From Nitrosomonas sp. (GTDB lineage Bacteria; Pseudomonadota; Gammaproteobacteria; Burkholderiales; Nitrosomonadaceae), in contig SSFV01000119.1 of the NCBI GenBank assembly GCA_008015565.1, positions 1-37,905 of the forward strand: 37,905 bases of DNA. Direction: 5' to 3'. The position numbers and the translations under genes were made by a program. The notes beneath the pieces were generated by a model. That model was not told where the DNA came from, searched no databases, and saw nothing but the letters and a program-made list of their open reading frames with translations. Shown piece after piece: positions 13,446 through 22,863 of this stretch; positions within the stretch are counted from its first letter, which is position 1, and the number at the start of each line of letters is the position of its first letter.

Positions 13446-13702
13446 AAAAGTTTGTCATCGTTAGGTTAATTTTGGTGATTTCAGTATATGATTGCGTGTT
13501 ATAGAAAGATCATGTGAGTTCGCGCATTTAGTTATCTGTATGATTAAAATTGTAAATATTAATAATTTCTAACATTATGCATATATCGTTTAATCTTGCG
13601 AGCTGGTAATGAAATATCGTTTTGTATTTTACAAAAATTTTACACATATTAACCTAAACTTTAGTAAATCATGTTTAATTATTGATAGAAAGGTTGGCAA
13701 TT
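13446..13702. other. AT-rich divergent region before the sigma factor gene
   Basis: No gene is seen in these 257 bases. On the plus strand TTGTAA (13550-13555) and CATTAT (13573-13578) have 17-base spacing and could be a promoter for the sigma factor gene, leaving a leader of about 115 bases. AGAAAGG at 13687-13693 looks like its ribosome-binding site. Confidence 0.35.
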
Positions 13703-14269
13703 CTGGCAACACGAGAAGAACTTTCAGATTTTCTAATTGAAATCGAGCGGCGGGCGTACAAACAAGCTTTGTTTGCGGTGCAAGATGAGCAAGCAGCATT
13801 GGATATCATTCAAGATTCCATGATGAAACTTACGGCGAAGTACACTTCAAAACCGGTAGAGGAGTTACCTCTACTGTTTCAACGAATTTTACAAAATACC
13901 ATTCGTGACTATTATCGCCGGCAGAAGACCCGGACATTATGGACTACGTTGTTTTCGGCATTTATTCCCAGTGATCAAGATAAGGAGCGGGAGGATGCTG
14001 ATTTTCTTGAAACTTTTCCGGTTAAGCAAGAATCCAACGAGCCTGACGCTCAACTTGAGAAAGCGCAATTAGTTGATTTAATTGAGGAAGCAATAAAAAT
14101 TCTACCTGTGCGTCAACGGGAAGCATTTATATTGCGTTATTGGGAGGAAATGAGTTTGGCGGAAACGGCAGCAATAATGAATTGTTCAGAAGGAAGCGTA
14201 AAAACGCACTGTTCAAGAGCAGTTCACACGCTGGCTTCGGTACTCGGTGAAAAAGGGGTTAAATTATGA
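13703..14269 (+). CDS. ECF-like sigma-70 family RNA polymerase sigma factor
   Basis: The protein has a region 2 helix set (DEQAALDIIQDSMMKL, then LPLLFQRILQNTIRDYYRRQK) and a region 4 DNA-binding part (ILPVRQREAFILRYWEEMSL and GSVKTHCSRAVHTL). A charged linker of about 50 residues separates them. The start is odd. AGAAAGG at 13687-13693 points to a CTG at 13703, giving M-ATREELSDFL and 188 residues, which fits the N terminus I remember for homologues. The TTG at 13682 lies upstream of this ribosome-binding stretch, and the TTG at 13694 directly abuts it. The gene overlaps the next by 4 bases (ATGA), so the two are probably translated together, as expected for a sigma factor and its membrane regulator. 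The target genes are unknown. Confidence 0.85.
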   Translation: MATREELSDFLIEIERRAYKQALFAVQDEQAALDIIQDSMMKLTAKYTSKPVEELPLLFQRILQNTIRDYYRRQKTRTLWTTLFSAFIPSDQDKEREDADFLETFPVKQESNEPDAQLEKAQLVDLIEEAIKILPVRQREAFILRYWEEMSLAETAAIMNCSEGSVKTHCSRAVHTLASVLGEKGVKL

Positions 14270-14880
14270 ACGAGCAAGAGTTAGGTAAAAAAATTGCAGA
14301 GCTATTGGATGTTGGTGCAAGTGAGAATATTAAGCAAAGTACGCTCTATCGGTTGCAGTCTGCTCGTCGCTTGGCTCTGGAGAATTGCCAATCCAGCTAT
14401 GAAATCATTAATTCAGGTAACGGTACTTCCGCCTTCAGTGAACATGATCAGCATCATTTTCATACGGGAAAATTGATATTGCTATTAATTATGTTGTTTG
14501 CTTTCGCTCTGGTTTCTGCGACTTATTGGCAATTTCTTGAAAAGGGTAAATCCGCTGTGGAAGCTACGGTATTAATTGATGATAAATCATCAAGTGCTGT
14601 TTTGGATAATGAACATGAAGCAAGCGGTGAATCATCAATAGAGACTTACATTGATAATGTGCTTCAGTTGGTTGATGATTTATCAACAGACGATCAAATT
14701 GACAACGGATCAGAACAAGATGATGACGTTCCGACTGATGCTTATGTCACTGATGAAGCAATATCGGAAGATGATGGTTCATTAGACACACGAAGTAATG
14801 ATGAATTTGATCTGAATATTGATTCGCAGTCGAAAGAACATATCGACAATGAACTTGAAGAAAGTTTAGTTATTCAATAA
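14266..14880 (+). CDS. DUF3619-like single-span membrane protein, candidate sigma regulator
   Basis: The 204-residue product has a cytosolic-type N-terminal part (about 1-66) resembling DUF3619 (MNEQELGKKIAELLDVG, LYRLQSARRLALEN), one transmembrane helix (about 70-88) and an extremely acidic C-terminal part. In roughly 105 residues after the helix I count about 34 Asp/Glu and only 3 Lys/Arg. A DDDVPTDAY segment inside it recalls the DDLPxDAY motif of DUF3619 proteins. The coupling to the sigma factor gene suggests an anti-sigma or sigma-sensing role, with the N terminus in the cytosol and the acidic tail outside. This is inferred from position and topology only. Confidence 0.65.
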   Translation: MNEQELGKKIAELLDVGASENIKQSTLYRLQSARRLALENCQSSYEIINSGNGTSAFSEHDQHHFHTGKLILLLIMLFAFALVSATYWQFLEKGKSAVEATVLIDDKSSSAVLDNEHEASGESSIETYIDNVLQLVDDLSTDDQIDNGSEQDDDVPTDAYVTDEAISEDDGSLDTRSNDEFDLNIDSQSKEHIDNELEESLVIQ

Positions 14881-15106: not shown

Positions 15107-17404
15107 ATGCAGCAGTTTCATCATTCTTCAATCAATCATTTATCTCAAACTTGGAGAGAGGCTATCGCATCACAATTGACCGATGGAGAAAATGTGATGG
15201 CTTGGATTGAAACTGATCTTGATTTGCAATTGCATTTTGCGAAAGGGATTGTAGTTGTTACCAATCAACGCTTGTTGGCTAAAATGTATGTCAGCGATAT
15301 ATGGCAAACGTGGTCTTATCGGCAGGGCCTACTGCTGACTCAGCGCGATTATGCAGGGATAGGGTGTTTGGAGTTATTCGATACGCATTCACGGCTCGCT
15401 CATTGGCGCTATCGCTTAGGTAGCGATAGTGCAGTTAATAGGTTGATTGAATCCTTTACTCAACAACGTGACAGCTATTGTACAGCTAGCGAGCTTCCTC
15501 GAATTGCAGATGCATTTATTCAATGTCCAGCTTGTGGCGCTGTGTTGGGCATGGGTCAGATTGATTGCCCGGTTTGTGAAAAACAAAATAACGTTCAGCC
15601 ATCTACATGGACGTTACTGAGGTTGTGGCGTTTTGCAAAGCCTTATCAAGGGCGTTTACTGATTGGATTTTTATTAACTTTATGCAGCACTGCGGCGACA
15701 TTGGTACCGCCTTATTTAACTATGCCGTTAATGGATAATGTGTTAATACCTTATCAGAACGGCCACCCGATCAATAACGAATTAGTCGCATTTTATCTAT
15801 CCGGATTGCTGGGCGCTTCAGTTCTGGCTTGGATGCTGGGATGGGCAAGAACTTATATGCTGGCGCTCGTATCTGAGCGCATCGGTGCCGATCTTCGCAC
15901 AACTACTTATGAACACTTACTTAATCTTTCTCAGGAATATTTCGGTGGTAAGCGAACTGGAGATTTGATGGCACGCATCGGCGCTGAGACCGATCGAATT
16001 AATCTGTTTCTTTCTCTGCATTTGCTTGATTTTGCAACAGATGTAATCATGATTGCAATGACCGCAGTAATTCTGATCTCAATCAATCCTTGGTTGGCAT
16101 TAGTGACGCTCGTGCCACTTCCTATTATTGCCTGGCTAATTCATCTGGTTCGTGACCGTTTAAGAATTGGTTTTGAGAAAGTCGATCGTATTTGGGCTGA
16201 AGTAAACAATGTACTTGCAGATACTATCCCAGGTATTCGAGTCATTAAGGCGTTTGCGCAAGAAAAAAGAGAAGCGGCACGTTTTCGCGCGGCAAATCAG
16301 AGAAATTTGCAGATCAATGACCGTGTAAATCGAATTTGGTCATTATTTACACCGACAGTGACTTTATTAACTGAGGTGGGTTTATTGGTGGTATGGATAT
16401 TTGGCATTTGGCAAATATCCAATGATGAAATTACAGTCGGTGTGCTGACAGCTTTTCTTGCCTATATCGGCCGGTTTTATATCAGACTGGATTCGATGAG
16501 TCGCATTGTATCGATCACACAGAAAGCTGCTGCTGGAACTAAGCGCATTTTCGATATTCTGGACCATGTCTCCAGTGTTCCGGAATCTCCTAATCCTGTT
16601 CATTTGAATACAGTGCAAGGTCAGATCGAGTTGCGCAACGTTAGTTTTCGCTACGGAACGCGAAGTATTGCACAGGATATTAATCTTGTGATCACACCAG
16701 GTGAAATGATCGGCCTGGTTGGGCATAGCGGTTCGGGGAAAAGCACATTGGTGAATTTAATTTGCCGTTTTTATGATGTAACTGAAGGAAAAATTTTAAT
16801 CGATGGGCATGATATCCGCTCATTGCCTGTTACTGAATATCGCAAACATATTGGTTTGGTGCTCCAAGAACCTTTTCTATTCTATGGCACTATTGCGGAA
16901 AATATTGCTTACGGCAAACCCGATGCAACGCACGATGAAATTGTGTCGGCTGCGCGTGCTGCGCACGCACATGAATTTATTCTGCGCTTACCGCATGGAT
17001 ATGATTCGCTTGTTGGCGAGCGGGGGCAAGCGCTTTCTGGCGGAGAGCGCCAGCGCATCTCAATAGCCCGTGCGCTATTAATTAATCCACGTATCTTAAT
17101 ACTAGATGAGGCGACATCTTCAGTGGATACAACTACTGAGAAGGATATTCAGAAAGCCTTGGATAACCTTGTGCGTGGTCGAACGACGATTGCGATCGCA
17201 CATCGCCTATCAACCTTGCAAGAAGCCAATAGGCTGGTTGTTCTTGATCGTGGCAAAGTTGTTGAGATCGGCAATCATTCGGAACTAATGTCGCGAGAGG
17301 GTTATTATTACCGCTTGTATCAAGCCCAAGCACGTAATGTAGATGTCGAAGACAGCGGATATGCTCCGTTTATCGAACATAGTGCAGCAGGGGAAATTAA
17401 GTGA
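15107..17404 (+). CDS. Cyanophycin-associated ABC transporter (fused membrane and ATPase domains)
   Basis: The 765-residue protein is an exporter-type half transporter with extra N-terminal parts. Residues about 20-125 look like a PH-type domain (DGENVMAWIETDLDLQLHFA, VVTNQRLLAKM). A zinc ribbon follows (C140-x2-C143, C154-x2-C157). Six predicted membrane helices span about 180-450. The ATPase domain has Walker A from G539 (GHSGSGKST), the signature L643-SGGE, Walker B with D667-E668, and an IAHRLS switch histidine. Such transporters next to cphA genes are known as cyanophycin metabolism-associated ABC transporters, but the substrate is not established to my knowledge. The gene ends in a 4-base GTGA overlap with the DUF1854 gene, suggesting coupled translation and possibly a complex. 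Arg, Asp or dipeptide transport is a guess. Confidence 0.88.
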   Translation: MQQFHHSSINHLSQTWREAIASQLTDGENVMAWIETDLDLQLHFAKGIVVVTNQRLLAKMYVSDIWQTWSYRQGLLLTQRDYAGIGCLELFDTHSRLAHWRYRLGSDSAVNRLIESFTQQRDSYCTASELPRIADAFIQCPACGAVLGMGQIDCPVCEKQNNVQPSTWTLLRLWRFAKPYQGRLLIGFLLTLCSTAATLVPPYLTMPLMDNVLIPYQNGHPINNELVAFYLSGLLGASVLAWMLGWARTYMLALVSERIGADLRTTTYEHLLNLSQEYFGGKRTGDLMARIGAETDRINLFLSLHLLDFATDVIMIAMTAVILISINPWLALVTLVPLPIIAWLIHLVRDRLRIGFEKVDRIWAEVNNVLADTIPGIRVIKAFAQEKREAARFRAANQRNLQINDRVNRIWSLFTPTVTLLTEVGLLVVWIFGIWQISNDEITVGVLTAFLAYIGRFYIRLDSMSRIVSITQKAAAGTKRIFDILDHVSSVPESPNPVHLNTVQGQIELRNVSFRYGTRSIAQDINLVITPGEMIGLVGHSGSGKSTLVNLICRFYDVTEGKILIDGHDIRSLPVTEYRKHIGLVLQEPFLFYGTIAENIAYGKPDATHDEIVSAARAAHAHEFILRLPHGYDSLVGERGQALSGGERQRISIARALLINPRILILDEATSSVDTTTEKDIQKALDNLVRGRTTIAIAHRLSTLQEANRLVVLDRGKVVEIGNHSELMSREGYYYRLYQAQARNVDVEDSGYAPFIEHSAAGEIK

Positions 17405-17874
17405 GTCATGCGCCAAATTTCCAGTTAACGCGCAATGCCTTTGGCCGGCTAGTCTTTAGAGATCAATGGGGAGCAATGCAAGAAGGAGTTGTTCCGATCA
17501 GAGGCTTCCCCATTACTAATCCCAATCGAGGTATTGCGTTGGTAGATTGTCACGGCCATGAATTGATATGGATAGACTGTTTGGCTGATTTACCGAGCGA
17601 TTATCGAATGCTCATTGAAGATGAGTTATTGAGTCGGGAATTTATGCCGGAAATAAAACGCTTGTATAACGTTTCGAGTTTTACTACACCAAGTACGTGG
17701 AAAGTTGTAACAGATCGCGGGGAAGTGTCATTTATCCTAAAAGGTGAGGAAGACGTTCGCCGGCTGACGTCCTCGTCATTCATGATTACGGATAGTCATG
17801 GTATTCATTTTTTGATTCGCGATCATTTGTCACTTGATCGTAACAGCCGTAAGTTATTAGATCATTTTTTATAA
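17401..17874 (+). CDS. Cyanophycin-associated DUF1854 protein
   Basis: The 157-residue protein starts at a GTG that overlaps the transporter stop by 4 bases. It matches DUF1854: an N-terminal FGRLVFRDQWGAMQEGVVPI segment, GHELIWIDCLADLP, then a REFMPEIKRLYNVSSFTTPS block and a C-terminal part ending in LDRNSRKLLDHFL. No signal peptide or membrane helix is seen, so it is probably cytosolic. The family recurs beside this type of ABC transporter and cyanophycin synthetases, but its function is unknown. The overlap suggests it works with the transporter, perhaps as a soluble regulator or subunit. cphA' begins 94 bases later, after a small AACCA/TGGTT hairpin. Confidence 0.85.
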   Translation: MSHAPNFQLTRNAFGRLVFRDQWGAMQEGVVPIRGFPITNPNRGIALVDCHGHELIWIDCLADLPSDYRMLIEDELLSREFMPEIKRLYNVSSFTTPSTWKVVTDRGEVSFILKGEEDVRRLTSSSFMITDSHGIHFLIRDHLSLDRNSRKLLDHFL

Positions 17875-17968: not shown

Positions 17969-20296
17969 ATGCCTAATTTAAATAGTAATAGTGAGAGAGA
18001 TATCAAATTTATTGAAATCAAGCACTTAAATGGCCCTAATCTTTGGACTTATTACCCGGCTTTAGAAGCAACTGTCGATATTGGCGATTTGGAAGACTTT
18101 CCTTCCGATAAAATTCCAGGCTTTTATGAACGTTTGTCAGAATGGTTGCCATCCCTCATTGAGCACCGCTGCAGTTACGAAGAACGTGGAGGATTTCTAC
18201 GGCGATTAAAAGAAGGTACGTGGCCTTGCCATATTCTTGAACATGTAACATTGGAGCTGCAAAATTTAGCGGGCATGCGAGGTGGTTTTGGTAGGGCTCG
18301 TGAAACCTCTGTGAGAGGTGTATATAAAGTTGCATTAAGCGCATGGCACGAAGAAATTACACGTACTGCTCTGCATTTAGCACGTGACCTGGTACTGACA
18401 GCTATGAACTTTAAGCAAATACCGGATCCTTCATATGATGTCGATGCCGCAATTCAGCATTTGCGGGATATGGTTGATTCCCTATGGCTTGGACCCTCGA
18501 CAGCGTGCATTGTTGATGCCGCAACAGCGCGTAATATTCCGGCTATACGGCTTATTGCAAAAGGAAATCTTGTTCAACTTGGATATGGCTCCCGTTGCCG
18601 GCATATCTGGACCGCGGAAACGGACAGGACGCCAGCTATTGCTGAGAGTATTTCACGTGATAAGGATTTGACAAAAGCGTTACTGCAATCGTGCGGAGTT
18701 CCGGTTCCTGAAGGATGTGTTGTTGAAAGTGCAGAGCATGCTTGGAAAGCGGCGAATGAAATTGGCTTGCCGGTTGTCATTAAACCTTGTGACGGTAATC
18801 ATGGTCGTGGTGTTTTTATCGAGTTAAGCGAACGGGAAGAAATTGAGTCAGCTTATCATGTAGCACTCAAAGAAGGTACCGGTGTGCTGGTTGAGCAGTA
18901 TATTGCAGGCACCGAGCATCGCTTATTAATTGTCGGCGAACAGCTTGTGGCCGCAACAAGGGGTGATTCAGTTTCAGTTATTGGAGATGGTATCTCGACG
19001 ATCAGCGAATTAATTGAGTTACAAATCAATTCTGATCCTCGCCGAGGAACTACGGAAGATCATCCGTTGAACTTGATTCGCATTGATAGTGCAGCGCGAA
19101 TTGAAATTGCGCGTCAGGGCTATCATAGCCATTCGGTTGTTCCTGTTGGTATCAAGGTTGTGATTCAACGTAATGGTAATCATGCGTTCGATGTGACAGA
19201 TCAAGTGCATCCCAATACTGCCGCTATCGCATCACTCGCGGCGCGCATTGTTGGGTTGGATATTGCGGGTATTGATTTAGTGGCGAACGATATTTCTCAT
19301 CCATTAAGCGAGCAAGGCGGCGCGATTGTCGAGGTGAACGCTGGACCTAGTTTATTGATGCATATTAAACCTGCGGTGGGCACACCCCGGCCCGTAGGTA
19401 AAGCTATAGTTACCCATCTTTTTCCAAATCAACAAGACAATGGCCGCATTCCTATTGTCGGAATTAGCGGTAGTTATGGCAAAACAGCTGTTTCATATCT
19501 GGTTGCGAGGCTGCTGATTCTTTCCGGCAAAAAAACTGGCTTAGCATGTAGTGATGGACTTTATCTGGACTATAGAAAAATAGATAAAAAAAACAGCGCT
19601 AACTGGGCAGCTGCAAATCGTACCTTAATGAATCCAACTGTTGAGGCCGCTGTGTTCGAGAACGGTTTTGACGTGCTTATGAATGAAGGGTTAGCTTACG
19701 ATAGCTGCGATGTGGGAGTAATCACTAATGTTGATTTGTCTCATCATTTTGAGCGGCATGGTATGGAGACACGTAAGCAAGTTTTCAATGTACTGCGCAC
19801 ACAAGTCGATGTGGTGACGCCTACAGCTGCAGCGGTTGATGATGTGGAGAAAGATGTCCGGTTACCTATTGGTGCTGCGATTCTCAATGCTAAAGATGAA
19901 ATATTGGTTGAAATGTCTGAGCTGTGCCACGGAGAAGTTATTTTTTTCAGTACCGAGCCAGAATTACCTGTGATCACTCAACATCGTGTCAACGGGACAG
20001 GCTCTGCACAAGGAAAAAGAGCGGTGATTCTTCGAAATAACAGCTCTATTGTGCTGGTTACCGGTGCTTATGAATTACCGTTGATTAAATTGACAGACAT
20101 TTTTTCAGATATCACTGATCACAGTTTGCAAGAGATAGAGAACATCTTGGCCGCTATTGGTGCTGCCTGGGCGTTGGGTATTGGGTCTGATCTTATACGG
20201 ATTGGCATTGCATCTTTTGGATTTACTCAGAATGAGTATAAACCGGAGAATCAGGATTTTTTAGCTAGCCTACAAACTCAAGGAATCAAATTATGA
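17969..20296 (+). CDS. cphA': Cyanophycin synthetase-like protein CphA' (shortened paralogue)
   Basis: This 775-residue paralogue of CphA has the N-terminal domain (about 1-165), an ATP-grasp domain (about 166-480) and only part of the Mur-ligase-like domain. The N-terminal domain keeps H88-I-L-E91-H92 and E96, an HxxEH metal-site pattern linked in some cyanobacterial CphA1 enzymes to cleavage of cyanophycin into primers. The ATP-grasp part keeps IKPCDGNHGRG, VEQYIAG and IVEVNAGPS, but the SNANLSTGGTAT loop of CphA is cut to about 6 residues (402-407). The Mur P-loop is G501-SYGKTA instead of GTNGKTT, and the protein ends where the last Mur domain should begin. Polymerase activity alone is therefore unlikely. 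The stop overlaps the cphA start by 4 bases (ATGA), so both are made together. Confidence 0.88.
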   Translation: MPNLNSNSERDIKFIEIKHLNGPNLWTYYPALEATVDIGDLEDFPSDKIPGFYERLSEWLPSLIEHRCSYEERGGFLRRLKEGTWPCHILEHVTLELQNLAGMRGGFGRARETSVRGVYKVALSAWHEEITRTALHLARDLVLTAMNFKQIPDPSYDVDAAIQHLRDMVDSLWLGPSTACIVDAATARNIPAIRLIAKGNLVQLGYGSRCRHIWTAETDRTPAIAESISRDKDLTKALLQSCGVPVPEGCVVESAEHAWKAANEIGLPVVIKPCDGNHGRGVFIELSEREEIESAYHVALKEGTGVLVEQYIAGTEHRLLIVGEQLVAATRGDSVSVIGDGISTISELIELQINSDPRRGTTEDHPLNLIRIDSAARIEIARQGYHSHSVVPVGIKVVIQRNGNHAFDVTDQVHPNTAAIASLAARIVGLDIAGIDLVANDISHPLSEQGGAIVEVNAGPSLLMHIKPAVGTPRPVGKAIVTHLFPNQQDNGRIPIVGISGSYGKTAVSYLVARLLILSGKKTGLACSDGLYLDYRKIDKKNSANWAAANRTLMNPTVEAAVFENGFDVLMNEGLAYDSCDVGVITNVDLSHHFERHGMETRKQVFNVLRTQVDVVTPTAAAVDDVEKDVRLPIGAAILNAKDEILVEMSELCHGEVIFFSTEPELPVITQHRVNGTGSAQGKRAVILRNNSSIVLVTGAYELPLIKLTDIFSDITDHSLQEIENILAAIGAAWALGIGSDLIRIGIASFGFTQNEYKPENQDFLASLQTQGIKL

Positions 20297-22863
20297 AAGT
20301 ATTACGTATTCGAACATTGCGTGGACCGAACTTATGGAGTCAGTATAATTCCATTGAAGCTACTATCCTTTGTAGTGAATTGGAGGCTAGTATCAATAAA
20401 ATACCTGATTTTGAATTACGCTTACGTGAACGTTTTCCAGAGATACCCCTCCATCAATTAGCCGGTTACAGTCAGGCTATACCGATTGCTCGCGTGCTTG
20501 AGTCCGTTACGCTAGGTTTGCAAGTCCAGGCCGGTTGTCCGGTAACTTTTAGTGATACGGTCAGAACTCCGGAAGCAAATACATATCAAGTGATTGTAGA
20601 ATACAGTGAAGAAAGAGTTGGTAGGTTTGCATTTGAAATGGCGCAATCTTTTTGCAAAGCAGTTATTGAAGATACTGGATTTGATATTGATGATGCTTTG
20701 TCACAACTGCGCGAGCTTAATGAAGATATACGTTTGGGACCTAGTACGAATGCTATCGTGCAAGCCGCAGTTGCGCGGGGTATTCCATTTCGACGGCTGA
20801 CCGAAGGCAGCCTAGTACAATTTGGCTGGGGAAGTAAGCAGCGACGTATTCAAGCTTCCGAAAGTGATATCACAAGCGCTGTTGCTGAATCAATCGTGCA
20901 AGATAAGGAGTTGACTAAAACATTGCTTCATGTAGCAGGTATTCCTGTTCCACAAGGTCGAAATGTAAAGAATGCGGAAGATGCATGGGCAGCGGCATCT
21001 GAGATTGGTGCACCAGTAGTCGTGAAACCACTTGACAGTAATCAAGGTAAAGGTGTTACGGTCAATCTTATTGATGCTGAGCAAGTAAAAGCAGCTTATC
21101 TGATAGCTGCCGAGTTTAGTAATAATGTCTTGGTCGAACGTTATGTTTCTGGATATGATTTTCGCATGCTGGTTGTTGGTAATAAACTGGTTGCGGCTGC
21201 CCGGCGGGATCCACCACATGTTATTGGTGATGGAGTTCATAATATTCGTCAATTGGTCGAGCAAATTAATCGTGATCCAATGCGTGGAGAAGGCCATGTT
21301 ACTTCATTAACTAAAATTTCCCTGGATGAGATTTCTTGCGCTCATTTAGCATTGCAGGGATTAACTGTTGAATCAATTCCGGAGAATAATGCGCGCATTG
21401 TGTTGCGCAGTAATGCTAATTTGTCAACTGGCGGTACGGCAACCGATGTTACCGATGATGTTCATCCCGAACTAGCGGCACGTGTAATTGAAGCCGCCAA
21501 AGTTGTGGGGCTGGATATTTGCGGCGTGGATGTTGTTTGTAATGATGTGAGACTTCCATTAGAAGAACAGAGTGGAGGCATAATTGAAGTTAATGCCGCT
21601 CCAGGTTTACGTATGCATTTGCAACCGTCATTTGGCAAAGGACGGGCTGTAGGTGATGCCATTATTGATAATATATTTTGCAAAGGAGATGATGCACGTA
21701 TTCCGGTTATTGCGATAACAGGCACAAACGGCAAAACTACATCTGCTCGTTTGATTGCTAATGTTCTCGAGAAAGATAGTAAGCGTGTAGGTATTGCCTG
21801 CACTGATGGAGTGTATATTAACGGGCAATGCATCGAAGCTGGCGATTGTAGCGGTCCAAAAAGTGCAAGAAATATTTTGTTTCACCCGCATGTAGATGCA
21901 GCGGTACTAGAAACAGCGCGCGGTGGCTTGCTTCGCGAGGGGTTGGGTTTTGATCGCTGTGATGTCGCTGTCGTAACAAATATCGGTATGGGTGATCATT
22001 TGGGCATTGCTTATGTGAATACTCCTGAGGAATTGTCTAATGTTAAACGCATTGTTGTACAAAACGTGGCTTCAACTGGCTATGCTGTGTTGAATGCAGC
22101 CGATCCGTTAGTGGTCAGTATGGCGGAACATTGCCCCGGTTCAGTTATCTTTTTTGCTCAAGACGCTCATAATTCAGTACTGGCTATGCATCGCGCCCAG
22201 CATAAACGTGTTATTTTTGTTGAAAATCGCAATATCGTTGCTTTGGATGAAAAAGGCGAATATCGAATTCCGTTGAGTGAAATTCCGCTAACAAAGAATG
22301 GCAGTATTTACTTTCAAATTGAGAATGCAATGGCGGCTATCGGGGCTGGTTGGGCGTTAGGGTTGGAGTGGGCTGTTATTCGTAAGGGATTGGCTAGTTT
22401 TGTAAACGATGCGCAGACAGCGCCAGGCCGTTTCAATTTATTTAGTTACCGAAATGCTACCTTGATTGCTGATTATGGACATAATCCAGATGCAATAAAA
22501 GCGCTCGTATGTGCTATTGATAATATTCCTTCTAAAAAACGTTCTGTAGTTATTAGTGCTGCTGGTGACCGGCGTGATGAAGATATTCGCCAACAGACTC
22601 GAATACTTGGTGATGCATTTGATGAAGTTGTACTGTATCAAGATCAATGTCAGCGCGGCCGCGCTGATGGCGAGGTGTTGTCTTTGTTGCGAGAAGGTTT
22701 GGGTAATGCCAAACGTACGCAGAAGGTTAGTGAGATCGTAGGTGAGGCTATTGCAATAGATAAAGCACTATCAAACCTTGAAGATGGCGAGTTGTGTCTT
22801 ATTTTGGTTGATCAGGTAGAACAATCTCTTGGGCAAATCAATAGTCGTATTGCTTTGGGTTAG
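20293..22863 (+). CDS. cphA: Cyanophycin synthetase CphA
   Basis: The 856-residue enzyme builds cyanophycin by adding Asp and then Arg with ATP. The ATP-grasp domain (about 165-475) is complete: VVKPLDSNQGKG, LVERYVSG, the loop with S378-TGGT, and GIIEVNAAPGLRMH. The Mur-ligase-like domain has the canonical P-loop G477-TNGKTT, ETARGGLLREGLGF, GDHLG and the final domain with APGRFN, DYGHNPDA and SAAGDRRDED. The N-terminal domain, by contrast, has lost the HxxEH pattern seen in CphA': the equivalent positions are R67, E70, S71 and G75. CphA may therefore depend on primers made by CphA' or supplied otherwise. No cyanophycinase or isoaspartyl dipeptidase gene lies in the window. The zapD gene converges 41 bases downstream. 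Confidence 0.95.
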   Translation: MKVLRIRTLRGPNLWSQYNSIEATILCSELEASINKIPDFELRLRERFPEIPLHQLAGYSQAIPIARVLESVTLGLQVQAGCPVTFSDTVRTPEANTYQVIVEYSEERVGRFAFEMAQSFCKAVIEDTGFDIDDALSQLRELNEDIRLGPSTNAIVQAAVARGIPFRRLTEGSLVQFGWGSKQRRIQASESDITSAVAESIVQDKELTKTLLHVAGIPVPQGRNVKNAEDAWAAASEIGAPVVVKPLDSNQGKGVTVNLIDAEQVKAAYLIAAEFSNNVLVERYVSGYDFRMLVVGNKLVAAARRDPPHVIGDGVHNIRQLVEQINRDPMRGEGHVTSLTKISLDEISCAHLALQGLTVESIPENNARIVLRSNANLSTGGTATDVTDDVHPELAARVIEAAKVVGLDICGVDVVCNDVRLPLEEQSGGIIEVNAAPGLRMHLQPSFGKGRAVGDAIIDNIFCKGDDARIPVIAITGTNGKTTSARLIANVLEKDSKRVGIACTDGVYINGQCIEAGDCSGPKSARNILFHPHVDAAVLETARGGLLREGLGFDRCDVAVVTNIGMGDHLGIAYVNTPEELSNVKRIVVQNVASTGYAVLNAADPLVVSMAEHCPGSVIFFAQDAHNSVLAMHRAQHKRVIFVENRNIVALDEKGEYRIPLSEIPLTKNGSIYFQIENAMAAIGAGWALGLEWAVIRKGLASFVNDAQTAPGRFNLFSYRNATLIADYGHNPDAIKALVCAIDNIPSKKRSVVISAAGDRRDEDIRQQTRILGDAFDEVVLYQDQCQRGRADGEVLSLLREGLGNAKRTQKVSEIVGEAIAIDKALSNLEDGELCLILVDQVEQSLGQINSRIALG

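Follow-up and report, generated by a model that had tools for sequence, protein, structure and literature searches.

A 37,905-nucleotide stretch from the genome of a nitrifying bacterium, Nitrosomonas sp. (contig SSFV01000119.1 of assembly GCA_008015565.1; the window hereafter) carries two overlapping genes, cphA' and cphA, whose products divide between them the three active sites that are united in a single protein in the cyanophycin synthetase SuCphA1, cyanophycin being a polymer in which nitrogen is stored. CphA' keeps the hydrolase motif of the N domain, but the aspartate pocket is gone from its G domain; CphA keeps the residues of the M site and nearly all of those for aspartate addition in the G domain, and has lost the hydrolase motif. 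The same partition holds in all 112 pairs in which the gene following cphA' was read whole. We consider that the pair is probably a split cyanophycin synthetase, in which CphA' would be a cutter that supplies primers and CphA a primer-dependent polymerase. The features concerned are the following, with domain changes given relative to SuCphA1.

17969-20296, + strand: cphA', cyanophycin synthetase paralogue (775 residues); N-domain hydrolase motif intact, G domain Asp-blind, M domain decayed
17999-18484, + strand: N domain of CphA' (PF18921, about residues 11-172, 115.9 bits; predicted local distance difference test (pLDDT) score of the block 86-97)
18170-18256, + strand: Cx19HxxEH...E metal-site stretch of CphA', with C68 (18170), H88 (18230), E91 (18239), H92 (18242) and E96 (18254)
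18485-19450 (approximate limits), + strand: ATP-grasp G domain of CphA', with K232, K272, H278, R318, D436 and E455 kept
within 18485-19450, + strand: changes in that G domain, R323 to G332, R458 to L463, and an S396 loop shorter by 5 residues
19451-20293, + strand: M-domain remnant of CphA', K505 kept, D585/H586 site now H592/H593, without the C-terminal Mur lobe
20293-20296, + strand: 4-base ATGA overlap of the cphA' stop and the cphA start
20293-22863, + strand: cphA, cyanophycin synthetase (856 residues); M site complete, Asp site with Q at the H267 position
20491-20517, + strand: metal-site remnant in CphA (R67, E70, S71, G75)
21043-21045, + strand: CphA Q251, at the SuCphA1 H267 position by residue alignment

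CphA scores as a full CphA1 equivalog (TIGR02068, 987.1 bits against a cut-off of 850), while CphA' stays under that cut-off (691 bits) and passes the one for NF010623 (1015 bits, cut-off 877). The window CphA' is 94% identical to the nearest named CphA', from an ammonia-oxidiser assembly, and 82% identical to that of Nitrosomonas mobilis.

CphA' retains the hydrolase site and CphA lacks it

Loci for comparison were drawn from 40 regions of relatives, from 80 named loci (the best 80 of 591 relatives), and from a 398-genome draw of the phylum; start codons were assigned by rule, and at most two candidates were scored per genome in the 398-genome draw and in a further scan. The named hosts are mostly beta-proteobacteria by title, with some titles giving only Proteobacteria or gamma, and hosts include Nitrosomonas, Accumulibacter, Cupriavidus, Ralstonia, Achromobacter, Herbaspirillum, Zoogloea, Dechloromonas, Polynucleobacter and Gallionella. 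The residue counts were made on distinct protein sequences, after the exclusion of 27 fragments. Proteins with the full motif and R323 were classed as single-copy, and those with R323 and an incomplete motif as CphA (n=123, including one unpaired protein, L161 of genome G407). The presence of the motif in 11/11 of the single-copy class and in 0/123 of the CphA class therefore follows from the sorting, and the independent tests are the identity of the gene that follows cphA' and the motif in single-copy genomes.

When aligned to the SuCphA1 structure 7LG5, CphA' residues H66, C68, F76, R79, H88, E91, H92 and E96 correspond to H57, C59, F67, R70, H79, E82, H83 and E87, and CphA has H54, Q55, two gaps, R67, E70, S71 and G75 at the same columns, the loop with F67 and R70 being deleted. 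A preliminary description of this DNA had pointed to H88, E91, H92 and E96 as an HxxEH pattern in CphA', had placed R67, E70, S71 and G75 opposite them in CphA, and had noted that the two genes overlap; all of this is borne out to the residue. It had overlooked the third predicted metal ligand, C68, whose exact x19 spacing to H88 strengthens the hydrolase-site call. Whether CphA has L or Q at the corresponding position varies between alignments, because the deletion sits there. Unlike that of the M16 inverzincin peptidases, the putative metal site of CphA' takes its third ligand from an upstream Cys, as in CphA1.

The Cx19HxxEH motif, together with H57, F67 and R70 (SuCphA1 numbering is used in all comparisons), is kept in 112/112 distinct CphA' proteins, and E87 in 111/112. 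The 112 distinct proteins come from 118 CphA' loci, and at 112 of these loci cphA' is followed by a CphA gene that lacks the full motif. At L035 a fragment follows, and at five further loci no next gene was read; four of these stop at contig ends (L038, L044, L077 and L151, where L044 and L151 share one contig end), and the fifth is the lone extra copy L128. The proposal that only CphA' retains the primer-making site, made for the window alone, thus extends to every pair read whole. Among the 123 N-dead CphA, HxxEH without the Cys persists in four (L057, L147, L163 and L165), and the F67/R70 loop is absent from 122. The motif residues are kept in all 15 single-copy genomes in which they were read, from a total of 21 (G540, G577, G670, G725, G717 and G824 were left out); its spacing is x19 in six and x21 in five of the 11 checked, and the exceptions at other positions are L162, with Q at 267, and L199, with L at F67.

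The G and M domains of the two proteins

The preliminary description had regarded the synthetase domains of CphA' as damaged, which is accurate for the M domain and inaccurate for the G domain. The M-site triad (K499, D585, H586) is complete in only 14/112 CphA' proteins and the Mur lobe is present in 13/112, the window CphA' having neither; in CphA the triad is complete in 123/123 and the Mur lobe was read in 121/123. In the G domain of CphA', by contrast, K220, K261, H267, R309, D431 and E450 are kept in 112/112; the roles reported for these six residues are the binding of ATP and magnesium and the stabilisation of the acyl-phosphate (PMC9427784). The residues that line the site of the incoming aspartate, R323, S396 and R458 according to the same source, are all present in 123/123 N-dead CphA and in 0/112 CphA'. 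Here R323 is replaced by G in 105 and S in 7, R458 is lost from 112/112 (to L in 103), and the Asp-side S396 loop is 5 residues shorter in 112/112; N394 is still N in 109/112. Judged by its residues, calling CphA' damaged is too simple: the M domain is decayed, and the G domain has an intact ATP site without an aspartate pocket. The M site and C-lobe are intact in the CphA' of Cupriavidus, Ralstonia, Achromobacter, Pandoraea and a few others in which the Asp site is already lost, so that by parsimony the loss of the aspartate pocket preceded the decay of the M domain.

CphA is complete at nine of the ten Asp-site positions checked (K220, K261, H267, R309, R323, N394, S396, D431, E450 and R458), with only H267 missing; Q occupies this position in 118/123, including the window CphA. 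H267 is needed in SuCphA1, where the Ala mutant is inactive, and alignment shows that the CphA1 proteins of A. baylyi and T. morbirosei keep it. L162 and the extra G407 loci also have Q here, which suggests that it is probably tolerated.

A single duplication and mirrored constraint

In a G-domain tree of 81 chosen rows, built with a quick method and no bootstrap, the CphA' proteins (32) and the paired CphA proteins (32) each form one clade, with Shimodaira-Hasegawa-like approximate likelihood ratio test (SH-aLRT) values of 99 and 96, and the two clades join with L162 (98) into a group that excludes the remaining single-copy CphA1. An N-domain tree made without the catalytic columns recovers the same two clades (96 and 99). 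These topologies indicate that the pair arose by one duplication that was followed by partition of the sites. L193/L162 (genome G300) branches with the paired CphA in the G domain (92) yet carries the full motif, and its N domain is 53% identical to that of CphA' and 33% to that of CphA. Neither CphA' nor a cyanophycinase was found in G300, where the gene lies at a contig end of an assembly that is 8% contaminated; L162 possibly resembles the undivided form, although the assembly is poor.

The two copies are constrained in opposite domains. The ratio of nonsynonymous to synonymous substitution rates (dN/dS) of the N domain in CphA' and CphA is, respectively, 0.046 and 0.164 in Nitrosomonas, 0.072 and 0.172 in Cupriavidus/Ralstonia, 0.097 and 0.147 in Herbaspirillum, and 0.069 and 0.152 in Achromobacter; these are pairwise NG86 estimates, with synonymous divergence (dS) saturated in Nitrosomonas (1.4-1.8) and only three pairs in Achromobacter. 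The G domain of CphA' gives 0.048-0.152, and in Nitrosomonas and Achromobacter the constraint on the other domains of CphA' is about equal to that on N. Over 107 loci, mean identity within CphA' and within CphA is 0.67 and 0.58 for N, 0.69 and 0.70 for G, and 0.49 and 0.68 for the M core. CphA' is the better conserved of the two in the N domain in 4866/5671 locus pairs and in the M core in 10/5671. Constraint is thus mirrored, with the hydrolase domain better conserved in CphA' and the M domain in CphA. The earlier suggestion that two genes share a job once done by one protein gains from the duplication, the partition and this mirrored constraint, with the qualification that "damaged" does not describe CphA' as written.

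Cyanophycinase is rare in genomes with the pair

The cyanophycinase family TIGR02069 was matched over its cut-off in 3/114 genomes with only the pair, as opposed to 20/21 single-copy genomes, in two pooled samples of related genomes that do not amount to 135 independent cases. Among 121 relatives the three matches over the cut-off are both single-copy genomes and the pair genome G092 (136 bits). Among 80 further genomes, chosen from those that gave a match in the 398-genome draw and the further scan and including those judged single-copy, cyanophycinase is matched over the cut-off in 18/19 single-copy genomes (not in G300) and in 2/52 pair-only genomes (G523 and G554; 150 and 164 bits); four of the 80 are unclassed, G510 and G709 having no N domain and G723 and G787 having cphA at or near a contig edge. 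The matches in G092, G523 and G554 (136-164 bits) are frames of 407-424 residues away from the pair. In single-copy genomes the cyanophycinase lies within about 5 kb of cphA in 17/20, and on another contig in three (G540, G670 and G824). Five pair genomes have a strong match (G407, G707, G733, G807 and G783), near an extra CphA locus and not near the pair.

Matches under the cut-off occur in the Nitrosomonas-relative pair genomes G017, G051, G057, G058 and G068 (61-82 bits at best), in G077 (21 bits) and in G563 (95 bits); these could be divergent cyanophycinases. In the window's genome (91% complete), which holds CphA', neither a TIGR02069 match nor IaaA was found. The IaaA family PF01112 was matched in 62/121 relatives, 61 of them over the cut-off, both with and without the pair, and the idea that IaaA tracks the pair was rejected.

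A published survey reports cyanophycinase in 2.8% of 903 beta-proteobacterial genomes with cphA1, and suggests that isozymes as yet unidentified exist (PMC10206079). The scarcity seen here agrees with that figure and ties the lack of the enzyme to the split system. With cyanophycinase rare in pair genomes and common in single-copy ones, CphA' may also be the cyanophycinase that is reported missing in beta-proteobacteria, a second role, in turnover, that the preliminary description did not consider.

Proposed mechanism and alternatives

The N site of SuCphA1 is described as a zinc endo-cyanophycinase, which produces primers by cleaving the growing cyanophycin, and its E82Q mutant loses primer-free synthesis (PMC9262961). 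The same report states that the isolated N domain of SuCphA1, or full-length SuCphA1 dead at both the G and the M site, makes TmCphA1 primer-independent when supplied in trans; a split is mechanistically plausible because the N domain can work in this way on a primer-dependent CphA1. An ancestral three-site CphA1 would have been duplicated in the beta-proteobacterial lineage. One copy, CphA, would have kept aspartate addition (G) and arginine addition (M) and lost the zinc hydrolase of the N domain. In the other, CphA', the hydrolase would have stayed, the aspartate pocket in G would have disappeared and later, in most lineages, so would the M domain. CphA would then elongate cyanophycin and be unable to make primers, and CphA', probably in a mixed oligomer with CphA, would bind cyanophycin through its N domain and its ATP-bound G domain and cleave it endolytically, giving short oligomers for CphA to extend.

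Several observations weigh against this model. Ralstonia eutropha has two homologues, and its wild type reportedly produces no cyanophycin (PMC11362209); SuCphA1 heterodimers carry out primer-free synthesis somewhat better when all sites are in one protomer (PMC9262961), which is mildly unfavourable. The loss of H267 makes the competence of CphA itself uncertain, and the perfectly kept ATP site of CphA' is not something that a simple primer cutter would obviously need. CphA' is not always encoded beside CphA, as L128 (below) shows. Finally, the pairs stem from one shared duplication, and the counts therefore measure one event and its conservation, not repeated or independent origins.

A role for CphA' in turnover is the strongest rival, or addition, to that of primer cutter. 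In its strict form, with CphA' mainly the missing cyanophycinase and its N domain replacing CphB in the turnover of stored cyanophycin, it is unlikely. The contrast between pair and single-copy genomes, the strong matches that adjoin extra CphA loci and the published scarcity with its suggested isozymes all speak for it, but single-copy genomes hold the N motif and a cyanophycinase together, and the N site alone is no substitute there. The known N domain, moreover, is slow and yields mainly tetramers (PMC9262961), so that something else must complete the breakdown, the matches under the cut-off may conceal divergent cyanophycinases, and the lack of an IaaA match in the window's genome may mean another route or no recycling. 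The uniform G domain of CphA', with its ATP and acyl-phosphate residues kept, its aspartate residues and loop altered in every protein, its low dN/dS, and an Asp site that was lost while the M site was still intact in Cupriavidus, Ralstonia, Achromobacter and others, might instead belong to an active ATP-grasp ligase that uses another acceptor. It would activate the cyanophycin C-terminus and link it to a partner without free aspartate carboxylates, for example the N-terminus of another chain or an amine, and CphA' would then cut and rejoin or cap chains and set their length. We regard this as improbable, since it names no known acceptor, N394 is largely retained, and the ATP and magnesium residues may serve folding, cyanophycin binding or allostery. 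A combination of these two ideas, in which CphA' would be a two-way chain-end enzyme as well as the missing cyanophycinase, its zinc site priming and turning over chains and its Asp-blind G domain re-ligating or capping their ends, has a rather small chance of being right; if true, splitting the synthetase would have let these bacteria dispense with a separate cyanophycinase.

CphA' might also be a non-catalytic, prozyme-like partner that stabilises or regulates CphA, with the N motif kept for structure or metal binding; activating dead paralogues are described in other families, CphA' adjoins CphA in the pairs read, and it combines a decayed M domain with retained ATP-binding residues. There is only a slim prospect of this: besides the ligands, 112/112 proteins retain E82, the general base, and R70, which contacts the substrate, and a structural zinc site would need no E82. 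The loss of the same site from CphA, moreover, indicates that the fold does not need it. An artefact of annotation or assembly, or relics of decaying genes, could account for the broken pair of the genus member G006 and for a cphA in two frames in G083. This has a negligible probability for the pair at large: the CphA' frame was read at 80/80 named loci, dN/dS is low in both genes, and the same pair is seen in single-contig genomes such as G027, G028, G043 and G059. With open frames and low dN/dS, pseudogene or artefact was rejected, and a CphA' that supplies primers to CphA remains the reading we favour.

Linkage, extra copies and surroundings of the pair

Wherever both were read, cphA' and cphA point the same way. 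The distance between them runs from -10 to 199 bases, apart from a single case of 600, and a 4-base overlap as in the window occurs at 13/108 distinct loci with the next gene read. CphA' is present in 62 of the 121 relatives, all of which also have a CphA match, with irregularities in G077 (CphA on another contig), G083 (the two frames noted above) and G101 (cut by a contig end). A single intact CphA1 is present in 2/121 (G070 and G112). In G006, of the same genus, the cphA'-cphA pair is in pieces (L197), and the system can thus be lost.

Departures from the simple pair were also seen. L128 (G826) is a lone third cphA' copy with E87A, on a contig other than that of the genome's cphA'-cphA pair. 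L204:577-2832 (G021, same genus as the window) encodes a 751-residue CphA-like paralogue that, by alignment, keeps the Asp-site residues and has lost the M-domain P-loop and H267. At L155-L158 and L185-L188 a single-copy CphA1 is adjoined by a Mur-ligase-like frame of 411-461 residues with M-site residues and no N or G domain. Some pair genomes have a second cluster, with cyanophycinase and an extra CphA (L194 of G407, and G707, G733, G807 and G783); in G407 the N-domain motif is lost from both extra CphA copies. A search of plasmids for further pairs matched 19 records, at one place each, and yielded nothing further.

Two genes immediately upstream of cphA' in the window belong to families that NCBIfam labels as associated with cyanophycin metabolism, and are regarded as accessory.

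15107-17404, + strand: ABC transporter (NF052233)
17401-17874, + strand: DUF1854 protein (NF052234)

Both are present at 29 of the 105 loci with more than 3.5 kb of upstream sequence, and on this count they were rejected as obligatory parts of the system. Further upstream, 13682-14880 holds a regulator of the sigma-70 family and, overlapping it, a DUF3619 protein; the two may form a sigma/anti-sigma pair.

Comparison with known systems

Tandem cphA copies and the N-domain hydrolase were already known, and the part that appears to be new is the partition. Neighbouring cphA copies of Accumulibacter, Tetrasphaera and Sideroxydans resemble our pair in their arrangement, and the passages on them (PMC5178258, PMC10687191) do not describe a division of active sites. 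Our literature search, confined to open-access papers, found neither a statement of the partition in cphA'/cphA pairs nor functional work on the beta-proteobacterial pair. CphA1 is described as a polymerase with its own primer hydrolase, a single enzyme whose two activities cannot be balanced through expression (PMC9262961); in the pairs, polymerase and primer hydrolase seem to have come apart and to have stayed so across a large lineage. With separate genes, primer supply and chain length could be manipulated cleanly by genetic means, possibly also for production, and the question of how beta-proteobacteria with cphA degrade cyanophycin without cyanophycinase becomes directly testable through one gene.

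CphA' is much closer to CphA1 (457 bits) than to CphA2 (199 bits; 7TA5, 8FXH). CphA2 consists of N and G domains with a shortened M domain, and adds a whole beta-Asp-Arg dipeptide. Cyanophycinases (CphB, CphE and CphI; TIGR02069) are serine peptidases of family S51, and CphA' would share with them at most the cutting of cyanophycin, as a zinc endopeptidase of another family. CphA2 also differs from CphA' in having no N motif, as described in PMC9262961, and the identification of CphA' as a CphA2 was rejected.

A counterpart of CphA is TmCphA1 of Tatumella morbirosei (7LGN), which is likewise reported to have no N-domain motif and to retain Asp and Arg synthesis (PMC9262961). Both TmCphA1 and Acinetobacter baylyi CphA1 (7LGM) keep H267, unlike the paired CphA with its prevailing Q. 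The three-site SuCphA1 (7LG5, 7TXU, 7TXV) shares its N-G-M architecture with the pair as a whole, its N site being found in CphA' and its G and M sites in CphA; what distinguishes the pair is that these sites are split over two adjacent proteins, neither of which has all three.

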